A DNA stretch of 64,000 nucleotides from Gemmatimonadaceae bacterium (GTDB lineage Bacteria; Gemmatimonadota; Gemmatimonadetes; Gemmatimonadales; Gemmatimonadaceae), in the NCBI GenBank assembly GCA_011525845.1, contig WYBP01000008.1, forward strand, positions 124,001 through 188,000. The letters run 5' to 3'. The notes beneath the pieces were generated by a model. That model saw nothing but the letters and a program-made list of their open reading frames with translations. It was not told where the DNA came from and made no database searches. The position numbers were made by a program, and so were the translations under genes. Below are positions 38,002-64,000 of this stretch, piece by piece (within the stretch, counting starts at the first letter, position 1; the number at the start of each line of letters is the position of its first letter).

Positions 38002-39534
38002 GTGAGCGTCGCGATCGTCACGGCGGAGCAGGCGCTGCAGCGGGAGGCGGCCGCCATCGCGGACCGCGGGGAGTCCTACTCGCTCATGCGTGCCGCCGGC
38101 GAGACGACCGCGGCCCTCCTGCTCAAGCGCATCCCCGAGCTGCGCGAGCGCGGCGCGCTCGTCTTCGCCGGCACGGGGAACAACGGCGGCGACGCCTGGG
38201 TCGTCGCGGGGGCGCTGGCGCGCACCGGCTGCCCGGTGACCGTCGAGTCGCTCGGCGATCCGCGCTCCCCCGACGGACGACGCGCCCGCGACGAGGCCCG
38301 CGTCGCGCTCGCCGAGGCCTCCCCCGCGAACTGGCCGGTGGTGGTGGTCGATGGCGTGCTCGGGACGGGCGCGCGCGGCGAGGCGCGGGGCGAGGCCGCC
38401 GACGCCATCCGCCGGATCAACGAGCTGGGGGCGGCCGGCGCGGTCGTGGTGGCGCTCGACGTGCCCAGCGGCCTCGACTCGACGACGGGCACGGGCGGGG
38501 TGATCGTCCACGCGCGGCTGACGACGACGTACGGCACGCTCAAGCGCGGCCTCCTGCTCCGGCGCGACGAGGCGGGGGAGATCCTCGCGGTGGACATCGG
38601 GCTCGGCGAGCACGCGAATGACGGCCGGCTCCCCACCCTCGTGGACGCGGCCGCGGTGCGGCGCGCGATCCCGCCGATCCCCGCCGATGCGCACAAGGGC
38701 GTCCGGCGGCGGCTGGCGATCGTCGGCGGCGGGGACGGCATGGCGGGCGCACCGATGCTCGCCGCGCGCGGCGCGATGCGGAGCGGGATCGGCATGGTCC
38801 AGCTGCTCGTGAACCCGGCCAACGTGCCGGTCGTGCAGGCGGCGCTCCCGGAGACGATGGCGGCGCGCTGGCCCGTCACCGCCGAGGATCAGGAGCGGGT
38901 GCTCGGCTGGGCCCACGTGCTCCTCCTCGGGCCCGGGCTCGGCCGGACGGCGATGACGCGCGCCCTGGTGGAACGTCTCCTCGTCGCCTGGCGCGGCCCG
39001 GTGCTGCTCGACGCGGACGCGCTCAACGTCTTCGAGGGAGAGCCGCGCACGCTCGGCACCCTGCTCGGGGCACGCCCCGCGATCGTCACGCCGCACCCGG
39101 TCGAGGCCGGCCGTCTCCTGCGACTCGAGCCGCGTGAGGTGCTGGCGCGCCGGTTCGAGGTCGGGGCCGAGCTCGCGAAGATGCTGGGCGCGACCGTCGT
39201 GCTCAAGGGACCTCCGACCGTGATCAGCGCGCCCGACGGGCGCGTCGCGGTGAGCGCCTCCGGAGCGCCGACGCTCGGCGCGGCCGGCAGCGGCGACGTG
39301 CTCGCCGGGATCATCGCCACCCTGCTCGGCCAGACGCTGGATCCCTTCGCGGCGGGCACGAGCGGGGCGTGGATCCACGGGCGTGCCGGCGAACGCGCGG
39401 CCGAGCTCGGGTCGGTGCGGGGTGCCACCCTGCGGGACGTGATCGGCGCGCTGCGCGATGTCTGGTCCCTGACGGACCCCTTGCCCGAGGCGCCCCTCCT
39501 CGCGTCGCTCCCGGCGGTCGGGGCGCAACGATGA
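38002..39534 (+). CDS. nnrD: bifunctional NAD(P)HX epimerase / ADP-dependent NAD(P)HX dehydratase
   Basis: The 510-residue protein joins two repair activities for hydrated NAD(P)H. Residues about 1-215 form the YjeF_N epimerase domain (VFAGTGNNGGDAWVVAGALA, VVVDGVLGTGARGE, VALDVPSGLDSTTG). Residues about 230-500 form the ribokinase-like dehydratase (LAIVGGGDGMAGAPMLAARG, HVLLLGPGLGRT, VLLDADALNVFEG, IVTPHPVEAGRLL, VVLKGPPTVISAPDG and the anion-hole segment LGAAGSGDVLAGIIATLLGQ). GTG start; the stop overlaps the thiL start (ATGA). Confidence 0.95.
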   Translation: MSVAIVTAEQALQREAAAIADRGESYSLMRAAGETTAALLLKRIPELRERGALVFAGTGNNGGDAWVVAGALARTGCPVTVESLGDPRSPDGRRARDEARVALAEASPANWPVVVVDGVLGTGARGEARGEAADAIRRINELGAAGAVVVALDVPSGLDSTTGTGGVIVHARLTTTYGTLKRGLLLRRDEAGEILAVDIGLGEHANDGRLPTLVDAAAVRRAIPPIPADAHKGVRRRLAIVGGGDGMAGAPMLAARGAMRSGIGMVQLLVNPANVPVVQAALPETMAARWPVTAEDQERVLGWAHVLLLGPGLGRTAMTRALVERLLVAWRGPVLLDADALNVFEGEPRTLGTLLGARPAIVTPHPVEAGRLLRLEPREVLARRFEVGAELAKMLGATVVLKGPPTVISAPDGRVAVSASGAPTLGAAGSGDVLAGIIATLLGQTLDPFAAGTSGAWIHGRAGERAAELGSVRGATLRDVIGALRDVWSLTDPLPEAPLLASLPAVGAQR

Positions 39535-40484
39535 GCAAACATGTGCGGCTCGGGCCCGGACGCGAGTTCGACGCCGTCCGCGCCCTCGTGGGCGCGTGGG
39601 GAAGCTCGGCCGTCGGCATCGGGGATGACGGCGCCCTGCTCGACGTGCCGGCGGGCTCCCGGCTCGTGGTGAGCACGGACAGCACGGTGCAGGACGTGCA
39701 TTTCCGTCGCGAGTGGCTGGAGCCCGCGGAGATCGGCTGGCGCGCGACGATGGCGGCGCTGAGCGACCTCGCCGCGATGGGCGCGTCCCCGCTCGGCCTC
39801 CTGCTCGCGCTCACGGTCCCCGACGACTGGCGCGCGGCGCTCCCGGCCATCGCGAGCGGGGTCGGCGCCGCGGCGGCACACACGGGCACGCCGATCGTGG
39901 GCGGCGACCTCACCACGGGGGAGCGCCTCTCGCTCGCGATCACCGTGCTGGGCCACACGCCGCGCCCGCTGGCCCGCTCGGCCGCACGTCCCGGCGACAC
40001 GCTGTACCTCACGGGCGCGCTCGGCGGTCCGGGCGCCGCGCTCGCCGCCTGGCGTCGGGGCGGCAGGCCGCGGGCCGAGGACCGGGCGCGCTTCGCGCAT
40101 CCGGAGGCACGCCTCGACGCCGGGACGTGGATGGTGCGGCAGGGTGCGCACGCCGCCGTCGACATCTCCGACGGGCTCGCGGGTGATGCGCGCCACCTGG
40201 CGGCGGCGAGCGGCGTGCGGTGCGTGCTCGACCTGGACGCCGTGCCGTGCGCGCCGGGTGTGCCGGTGCGTGAGGCGCTGGTGAGCGGGGAGGAGTACGA
40301 GCTGCTCGTGGCCGCTCCGGCGCTCGACGTCACGGCGTTCGCGGCGGCCCACCGCGGGCTGGCGCTCCATGCCGTGGGCCGCGTGGAGGCGATGCCGGGG
40401 GACGCCGCCGGAGAGCTGGTCGCGGAGGAGGGTGGGCAGCGCGTGGCCCTCCCGGGTGGGCACGACCACTTCGCCGCGCCGTGA
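39531..40484 (+). CDS. thiL: thiamine-phosphate kinase
   Basis: From ATG 39531 the protein has 317 residues and phosphorylates thiamin monophosphate to TPP. Visible ThiL motifs: GIGDDGALLDVPAG, STDSTVQDVHFRREW, AALSDLAAMGASPLGLLLAL, GGDLTTGERLSLAITVLG and VDISDGLAGDARHLAAASG. It overlaps the upstream stop by 4 nt. No other thiamin biosynthesis gene is nearby, but a TPP riboswitch with a TonB receptor lies at 61.6 kb in the same window, which fits use of imported thiamin compounds. Confidence 0.94.
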   Translation: MSKHVRLGPGREFDAVRALVGAWGSSAVGIGDDGALLDVPAGSRLVVSTDSTVQDVHFRREWLEPAEIGWRATMAALSDLAAMGASPLGLLLALTVPDDWRAALPAIASGVGAAAAHTGTPIVGGDLTTGERLSLAITVLGHTPRPLARSAARPGDTLYLTGALGGPGAALAAWRRGGRPRAEDRARFAHPEARLDAGTWMVRQGAHAAVDISDGLAGDARHLAAASGVRCVLDLDAVPCAPGVPVREALVSGEEYELLVAAPALDVTAFAAAHRGLALHAVGRVEAMPGDAAGELVAEEGGQRVALPGGHDHFAAP

Positions 40485-61545: not shown

Positions 61546-61617
61546 GTCTCGAAGGTAGCGGGGCGCGTGCGACTCGGCACTGGCGTCATCGGGGTCGTTC
61601 CGCTATCCCTTCAGGGA

Positions 61618-61704
61618 CAGCCGCCAGGGGTACTCCGCGAGTGCGGGGTTGAGAAAGTCTCTTGGAACCTGACCCGGTCAACACCGGCGTAGGGAGTGCG
61701 GCGA
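61618..61704 (+). promoter_or_regulatory. TPP riboswitch (THI element)
   Basis: The conserved aptamer elements are in order: P1 stem GCCGC (61620-61624) with GCGGC (61698-61702), CAGGGGTACTC, GGGTTGAGA (the TGAGA loop), GGAACCTGACC, the stem CCGG-TCAAC-ACCGG, and CGTAGGGAG. These match the thiamin pyrophosphate aptamer along its whole length. It lies about 135 nt upstream of the TonB receptor start on the same strand, so TPP binding should shut that gene down. Confidence 0.95.
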
Positions 61705-61723
61705 GTGTCGTGCGCGCCGCCAT

Positions 61724-61759
61724 GGGCCACGCCACCCGCTCGCCGGGTGCGCGTGGCCC
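61724..61759 (+). promoter_or_regulatory. long hairpin in the riboswitch expression platform
   Basis: GGGCCACGC (61724-61732) pairs with GCGTGGCCC (61751-61759), and inside it ACCCG with CGGGT around a 5-nt loop. This very stable stem lies 20 nt after the aptamer. It is not followed by a T-run, and the ribosome-binding site is about 65 nt further on, so it could be a Rho-dependent or structural terminator rather than a simple start-site mask. Confidence 0.6.
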
Positions 61760-61838
61760 TCGTCGTTCGCGACGTCGGGGCGCGCGTCGCCAGCGAGGTA
61801 CCGTCACTCCGGACTCCTTCTGCTTCGAGGTATCCGGC

Positions 61839-63905
61839 ATGCGCATCACCACGGTTCGTTCATCACTCGTCGCGCTCGGTCTCGTGACGATCATTTCCCT
61901 CCCGTCCCTCGCTCGCGCGCAAGGCGCGCCGCCCGCTCGGGATACGGCCGCCACCCCGCGCCGCGACACGCTCGACGCCGTGGTGGTGCGTGCCACGCGC
62001 GCCGGCGGGGCGCCGCCCACCTCCCAGGCCACGCTCGATCGCGCGACGATCGAGCGCCGCTACATGGGCCAGGATGCCCCGCTCGCGCTGCAGGGCATGA
62101 CCGGCGTCACCACGTCGTCCGACGCCGGGAGCTTCTCCGGATACAGCAGCCTCCGCCTGCGCGGGCTCGACCAGACACGGCTCTCGATCTCCCTCGACGG
62201 CGTGCCGCTCAACGACCCGGAGGACCAGGTCCTCTACTTCTCGAACGTCCCCGACTTCATGAACTCGATGCAGTCGGTGCGGCTGCAGCGCGGCGTCGGT
62301 GCGAGCGCGTTCGGGACGGCCTCGTATGCGGGATCGCTCAACTTCGAGTCCATCGCGATCGCGACCACGCCGCGGTTCGCCGAGGCGCAGCTCACGGGCG
62401 GCTCCTGGGGCACCGGGCGCGCAAGCATCGAGGGGGCGACCGGGCTGCAGGGCGCGTGGGCCGGTTACGCGCGCGTCTCGGCGCAGGAGACCGATGGCTA
62501 CCGCGAGCACTCGGGGAACCGTGCGCGCTCGGCGTTCGCCAGTCTCGGATGGTTCGGCGCGCGGGACGCCGTGAAGTTCACCGGCTTCGCCGGACGTTCC
62601 CGCACGCAGCTCGCATACTATGCGCCGAGCGAGGCCGACCTCGCGGCGAATCCGCGGGTGAACGTGATGTCCCCGCTCGAGCGGGACGACTTCCACCAGG
62701 AGATGGCGAGCCTGCAGCACACGCGCGCCATCGGCGCGGCGGCGACGCTCACCACCACGCTCTACCGGAACAGCGCGGCCGGCGCGTACGACGTGCTCGT
62801 CGGCCCCGACCTCTGGAACTTCAACCTCGCGCACGTCTGGTACGGCGCGCTGAGCACCTTCACCTGGTCGCGGCCGGGGCTCGCCGTGGCCGCCGGGGCG
62901 CACCTGAGCGACTACGCGCGCGATCACTTCCTCTTCGTCCGTCCCGACCTTGCCACGCGGGCCTACGACAACACCGGGCACAAGCAGGAGCAGAGTGCCT
63001 TCGGCAAGGTGACGCTGACGCGCGGCACGGTGGACTGGCATGCCGACGTCCAGCTCCGGCGCGCGGCCTTCCGCTACGTGCCGACGCCGGGGTCCTCGTT
63101 CGGCGAGCCGAGCGTCGACTGGACCTTCCTCGATCCCAAGGTCGGCGTGACGTGGCGCGCGCGGCCGGGGATCGCGCTCTTCGCCTCGCTCGGCCGGAGC
63201 GCGCGCGAACCGGCGCGCACCGACCTCTTCGCCGGCGCGGACGACGTGGACGATGCCACCGCGCCCGACGTGCTCCCGCTCGACCGGGTGCGCCCCGAGC
63301 GCGTCACCGACCTCGAGGTGGGTGCCCGCCTCACGTCGGCGCGGGCCACGGTGAGCGCCAACGCCTTCGTGATGCGCTTCCATGACGAGATCGCGCCGAT
63401 CGGGGCCATCGCGGTGACCGGGAGTCCGCTGCGCCAGAACGTCGGGCGGAGTGAACGGGTGGGCCTGGAGCTGGAGGGCTCCTGGCAGCCGCTCGACCGG
63501 GTGCAGGTGCACGGCAACGCGACGTTCATGCGGGCCCGCATCGCCGAGTTCACGGACGAGACGACCGCGACGACCTACCGCGATGTGCCACCGCTCCTCT
63601 CGCCGGCGGTGATCGCCAACGCCGAGGCGGTCTGGACCGCGCGCCTCGGGACCTTCACCGTCGCGCTGCGACACGTCGGCCGGTCACACCTCGCGAACGA
63701 CGGCAACGCCGCGCTCGTGACCCCCGCTTTCACGGTGGGAGATCTCAGCGCCGCGCTCCCCGTCGGACGTCACGCCCTTCGCGTGCAGCTGCAGAACGTG
63801 ACCGACGCACGCGCCTATACGAGCGGGTACACGGACGGTGCGACCCGCTACCTCTTCCCGCTCGCCGGACGGACGGTCCTCGCCACGGTCGTGCTCCGGT
63901 TCTAG
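61839..63905 (+). CDS. TonB-dependent receptor under TPP riboswitch control (probable thiamin transporter)
   Basis: ATG 61839 (GAGG 8 nt upstream) gives 688 residues with a signal peptide (SLVALGLVTIISLPSLARAQ). It has a plug domain (DAVVVRATRAG, YMGQDAPLALQGMTGVTTSSD, SLRLRGLDQTRLSISLDGVPLND, LQRGVGASAFGTASYAGSLNFES) without an N-terminal regulatory domain, and a barrel ending in TVLATVVLRF. The THI element upstream shows that TPP controls it, so the cargo is most likely thiamin, its phosphates or a thiamin precursor, brought into the periplasm with TonB energy. The plug/barrel assignment is firm; the substrate is inferred from regulation. The inner-membrane part is not adjacent. Confidence 0.9.
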   Translation: MRITTVRSSLVALGLVTIISLPSLARAQGAPPARDTAATPRRDTLDAVVVRATRAGGAPPTSQATLDRATIERRYMGQDAPLALQGMTGVTTSSDAGSFSGYSSLRLRGLDQTRLSISLDGVPLNDPEDQVLYFSNVPDFMNSMQSVRLQRGVGASAFGTASYAGSLNFESIAIATTPRFAEAQLTGGSWGTGRASIEGATGLQGAWAGYARVSAQETDGYREHSGNRARSAFASLGWFGARDAVKFTGFAGRSRTQLAYYAPSEADLAANPRVNVMSPLERDDFHQEMASLQHTRAIGAAATLTTTLYRNSAAGAYDVLVGPDLWNFNLAHVWYGALSTFTWSRPGLAVAAGAHLSDYARDHFLFVRPDLATRAYDNTGHKQEQSAFGKVTLTRGTVDWHADVQLRRAAFRYVPTPGSSFGEPSVDWTFLDPKVGVTWRARPGIALFASLGRSAREPARTDLFAGADDVDDATAPDVLPLDRVRPERVTDLEVGARLTSARATVSANAFVMRFHDEIAPIGAIAVTGSPLRQNVGRSERVGLELEGSWQPLDRVQVHGNATFMRARIAEFTDETTATTYRDVPPLLSPAVIANAEAVWTARLGTFTVALRHVGRSHLANDGNAALVTPAFTVGDLSAALPVGRHALRVQLQNVTDARAYTSGYTDGATRYLFPLAGRTVLATVVLRF

Positions 63906-63914
63906 TTTCGGGGG

Positions 63915-64000
63915 ATGCCCAGCACCCCGCGTTCGCTCGCCGAGGAGTTGCAGCAGAGTCGTCCCTTCTCCTCGGTGTCGGAGGAGGCGGTCGTCGCGGT
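63915..64000 (+). CDS. start of an unidentified gene (possible MarR-type regulator), truncated
   Basis: An ATG at 63915 after a GGGGG ribosome site opens a frame to the right edge (PSTPRSLAEELQQSRPFSSVS and EEAVVA follow the Met). The first ~28 residues resemble the N-terminal helix of MarR-family regulators, but this is too little to be sure. It begins 9 nt after the TonB receptor stop, so it may be on the same TPP-controlled transcript. Confidence 0.4.
   Translation, partial: MPSTPRSLAEELQQSRPFSSVSEEAVVA

Follow-up and report, generated by a model that had tools for sequence, protein, structure and literature searches.

A TPP riboswitch precedes a TonB-dependent receptor, probably for thiamin, in a Gemmatimonadaceae bacterium that appears to depend on thiamin import

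The presence of a TPP riboswitch in front of a TonB-dependent receptor gene, within a 64,000-nucleotide stretch of Gemmatimonadaceae DNA (hereafter the window), raises the question of what this receptor carries and how the host makes use of it. A preliminary description of the window had proposed that the receptor moves thiamin or a related compound. The analysis presented here favours a riboswitch-controlled thiamin receptor in a thiamin-importing host, a reading to which we assign a probability of roughly 0.87. Computation established the aptamer and the receptor, the conserved linkage between them, the absence of biosynthesis genes and a permease-kinase pair elsewhere in the genome; the substrate we infer from leader conservation and the missing synthesis genes, which support the original proposal. 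Features of the window are listed in Table 1.

Table 1. Features of the receptor locus and of thiL, in window coordinates.
Feature	Position	Strand	Basis
Possible promoter, CTGGCG, 17 nt, CTATCC	61580..61608	+	directly 5' of aptamer; weak
TPP riboswitch aptamer (THI element, RF00059)	61616..61713	+	covariance score; sole genomic copy; conserved in 17/17 genomes of the genus
G+C-rich hairpin (61724-61759) with T-containing tail (61760-61767)	61724..61767	+	proposed terminator (expression platform)
TonB-dependent outer-membrane receptor, 688 aa (OMthi/Omr1-like)	61839..63905	+	PF07715 plug and PF00593 barrel; riboswitch-linked orthologues
MarR-family regulator gene start, 168 aa, runs past window end	63915..64000	+	PF01047, 27.8 bits
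thiL, thiamin-monophosphate kinase	39531..40484	+	TIGR01379, 230.9 bits (cut-off 184.15)

The scan of the window with Rfam covariance models recovered the aptamer at 58.0 bits against a gathering score of 54.3 (E 9e-9) over the full model, positions 1-105, so that the full-length THI element of the preliminary description was borne out. The genome (3.58 Mb, 99.77% complete) contains no other RF00059 match. The aptamer ends 125 nt before the receptor start. The long open reading frame of the receptor opens within the aptamer, with a TTG at 61662, and the likely start is the ATG listed in Table 1, which has GAGG upstream and a signal-peptide-like N-terminus after it. Both receptor domains lie above their cut-offs (plug 42.9 bits, barrel 95.2 bits), confirming a TonB receptor downstream of the aptamer. 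The MarR-family gene (window 63915-64000 and L002:3916-4422) begins 9 nt after the receptor stop, an order that is kept in 11 of 17 congeners; it is possibly co-transcribed with the receptor and thus perhaps under the same riboswitch.

Upstream of the aptamer, a sigma-70 consensus scan detected no promoter; when the leaders of 17 congeners are aligned, the CT.. and CTA positions of the candidate in Table 1 prove to be kept. Downstream, the expression platform most likely acts through transcription termination by the G+C-rich hairpin, which has a folding energy of -32.4 kcal/mol (z -4.8) and begins about 10 nt 3' of the aptamer. Comparison of the congeners shows this hairpin in 12 of 17. In their alignment 97.7% of the cells are paired, against 32-58% in slid controls, and two pairs have changed on both sides, a covariation that is modest given the close kinship of many of the sequences. 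The tail is poor in T (4 of 8 positions here, 6 T in the congener G010), a terminator pattern scan did not flag the element, and an antiterminator could not be established. The five congeners that are missing the hairpin must control the receptor by some other means.

The best general NCBIfam match of the receptor is TonB-siderophor, at 102 bits and thus below the cut-off of 223.5, and the gene could accordingly be read as an ordinary siderophore-type receptor that gained a TPP aptamer by chance. We regard this as extremely improbable, as it is already contradicted by the conservation of the leader. A search with the receptor itself yielded a single orthologue in each of 67 genomes among the 149 relatives, and 64 of these orthologues stand behind a TPP riboswitch; only at the receptors of G049, G071 and G081 was none detected, and in the first two the receptor comes after the permease and kinase genes described below. 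Moreover, each of the 17 genomes of the genus carries a single riboswitch, always located ahead of the receptor. Riboswitches also accompany homologous receptors in other phyla, including MAGs of Acidobacteriota, Kapaibacterium, Ignavibacteria and Methylococcaceae.

In order to determine what else is controlled by this riboswitch, we searched the 149 relatives for the aptamer and read the gene 3' of each of the 139 matches. The first gene encodes ThiC in 67 cases, a receptor homologue in 65 and ThiM in four. The remaining targets are single cases, namely a PnuC/PnuT permease (G078), one ThiE-ThiD locus and a second match in G095 that was judged spurious, as its first gene is alcohol-dehydrogenase-like and it has no CCTG core. 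Among the 114 high-quality genomes, 49 have the receptor alone, 55 ThiC alone, four both and six neither (G034, G040, G111, G118, G125 and G138). The receptor and ThiC are therefore nearly mutually exclusive riboswitch targets in these relatives. The Fisher value for this distribution ignores shared ancestry; the state does, however, switch inside a number of genera, g2, g15, g24 and g48 among them, arguing that the same function under riboswitch control has been swapped more than once.

The distribution of the receptor is matched by the gene content of the host, for which the preliminary description had suggested a check for thiC, thiE and thiG; none was found. Family searches did not recover ThiC from this genome or its genus, ThiE gave no match here and only noise below the cut-off in congeners, and the sole ThiG match in this genome, at 20.6 bits, falls below the cut-off. 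Thiamin pyrophosphokinase (TPK, PF04263) is likewise absent from the host and was found in none of the 149 relatives, with positive controls. Since ThiC, ThiG, ThiE and TPK are missing while ThiL and a PnuT-like permease are kept, the host looks unable to make thiamin and its import looks obligatory. The thiL gene had been pointed out earlier as a neighbour that could act on what is imported. This gene is real and would catalyse the last step of the route proposed below, but its position carries no weight as evidence, because it starts 21 kb upstream of the receptor operon, outside it, and thiL occurs in all but one of the 149 relatives, whether or not they carry ThiC.

The missing genes also bear on the possibility that the substrate is not thiamin itself but one of its precursors or degradation products (HMP, thiazole or FAMP). 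Uptake of a pyrimidine precursor is hinted at by a Cytophagaceae MAG from Bacteroidota (L245:6337-9853), in which a TPP riboswitch and a receptor relative are followed by an NMT1/THI5-like binding protein. In four genomes (G024, G039, G064 and G083) one TPP riboswitch stands ahead of the receptor and a second ahead of ThiM, indicating that partial salvage coexists with import. For the host itself, however, such precursors would be useless, as ThiE, which joins pyrimidine and thiazole, is absent from it and from its genus, and ThiG and ThiC are absent from the host as well. We consider this alternative improbable.

How thiamin would be taken from the outer membrane to the cofactor is suggested by a gene pair on another contig of this genome (C2), which has no riboswitch. 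The first gene (L163:1099-1692) encodes a PnuC/PnuT permease, a clear member of its family (PF04973, 184.3 bits), although models of this family do not separate specificities. It is directly followed, with an overlap of the form GTGA, by a gene for a 191-aa kinase (L163:1689-2264); the two genes are direct neighbours in this order in 58 of 79 cases. The domain matches of this kinase are of AAA type only, with AAA_28 the sole one above its cut-off, and no NMN adenylyltransferase domain was found in it. The protein is nevertheless a homologue of the NadR kinase domain (1LW7, 6GYE and 8X7F; E 1e-22 to 5e-19), with the Walker motifs kept.

These components can be assembled into the following route. 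With little TPP in the cytoplasm, the aptamer would stay empty and the receptor would be made; at high TPP the aptamer would close and expression would stop, most likely via the terminator-like hairpin. The receptor would pass thiamin or a phosphorylated form over the outer membrane, and the PnuT-type permease would move thiamin through the inner membrane. The adjacent NadR-type kinase would then convert thiamin to TMP and ThiL would turn TMP into TPP, a sequence in which TPK would not be needed. With neither TPK nor ThiE, ThiL needs another source of TMP, which a thiamin kinase encoded next to the permease would provide.

The assignment of thiamin to this permease-kinase pair has to be weighed against another version of the same route, in which the NadR-type kinase and PnuC are partners for nicotinamide riboside and thiamin is handled by other proteins, such as an APH-like thiamin kinase, or imported TMP is used by ThiL directly. 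Matches to PF04973, TIGR01528 and, for the kinase domain, TIGR01526 point to models for nicotinamide riboside, Bacteroidota relatives of the receptor are paired with PnuC and full-length NadR, and the genome does contain an APH-like stretch that matches ThiK weakly (24.7 bits against a cut-off of 299). In other genomes, however, the pair lies in a thiamin context. The order riboswitch, receptor, permease, kinase is found in G052 and G075, in the Acidobacteriota L247, L248, L249, L251 and L254 and in the Methylococcaceae MAG L244, while in G078 a second riboswitch stands straight before the permease and kinase; in total, the kinase lies within a TPP-riboswitch operon in nine genomes from three phyla. 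In one of these operons, from a Vicinamibacterales MAG, the permease and the kinase are fused (L247:9016-10134).

The permease is present in 52 of the 53 high-quality genomes with a receptor, and the pair and ThiC have opposite distributions across the 114 high-quality genomes. Speaking against the assignment, 11 of 114 genomes carry both ThiC and PnuC. The single-domain kinases, moreover, form one clade (support 0.85) from which NadR is excluded; S80 and F136 are invariant in this clade and H87 and D124 nearly so, and NadR has other residues at these positions. The host also carries NadA for NAD synthesis. The version with nicotinamide riboside therefore appears rather unlikely to us, though it deserves consideration. 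Going by the riboswitch operons and the exclusion of ThiC, the permease may take thiamin rather than nicotinamide riboside. The single-domain kinase beside it is probably a thiamin kinase that, together with ThiL, replaces TPK, and we lean towards a hitherto unassigned family of such kinases spanning Gemmatimonadota, Acidobacteriota and some gammaproteobacteria.

The idea of a TPP-controlled TonB receptor is itself already known. A TPP riboswitch before a BT2390-like receptor has been published for Caldithrix abyssi (PMC5317091), omr1 with nearby riboswitches has been reported in SAR86 and Flavobacteriales (PMC10881298), and omr1 has been reported in Cellvibrionales, Sphingomonadales, Verrucomicrobia and Nostocales (PMC12442306). 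The suggestion that the present locus newly extends such control beyond Bacteroidota consequently does not hold, as Calditrichota and other groups precede it. The system described here resembles OMthi (BT2390)/Omr1 in its aptamer before a TonB receptor, in the co-occurrence of PnuT and in a role in thiamin uptake (PMC5613172, PMC5317091), which is predicted here. Deletion of OMthi from a biosynthesis mutant of Bacteroides thetaiotaomicron raised its thiamin requirement about tenfold (PMC5613172). That species has thiamin biosynthesis, whereas the Gemmatimonadota host is without it. Thiamin synthesis has been noted to be uncommon among Gemmatimonadales and Longimicrobiales (PMC10469786). In addition, the Bacteroides and Caldithrix systems come with TPK, in place of which we find the NadR-type kinase beside PnuT, and this kinase differs from the ribosylnicotinamide kinase of NadR in being a single domain.

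The new part is thus which enzyme phosphorylates the imported thiamin. In the literature searched, which was mainly that outside subscription journals, we found no earlier report of the receptor in Gemmatimonadota or of a NadR-type kinase in thiamin operons, though the latter may have been described before. The proposed route would explain the vitamin B1 supply of a widespread, mostly uncultured group and predicts a growth factor for culture media, and it names one short protein as the candidate for the missing step from thiamin to TMP.

Relatives of the receptor outside this system seem to serve a different vitamin. Twelve Bacteroidota-type receptors without a riboswitch (L229, L231, L252, L258, L259, L261-L264 and L266-L268) lie ahead of PnuC and a NadR-type protein, which in 10 of the 12 has a recognisable NMN adenylyltransferase motif. 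This suggests that these receptors carry nicotinamide riboside. If the single-domain enzyme is a thiamin kinase, it would seem that the receptor family splits into a thiamin arm with riboswitch, PnuT and kinase and a nicotinamide riboside arm with PnuC and full NadR, a division that we think somewhat better than even. As homologous receptors occur in both arms, homology alone gives no substrate and the riboswitch does; annotation of these receptors, which probably carry two different vitamins, needs regulatory context. In the tree of 81 receptors the riboswitch-less Bacteroidota-type sequences are separate from the riboswitch-linked ones, and L253, a member of Bacteroidia that has a riboswitch, groups among the latter.
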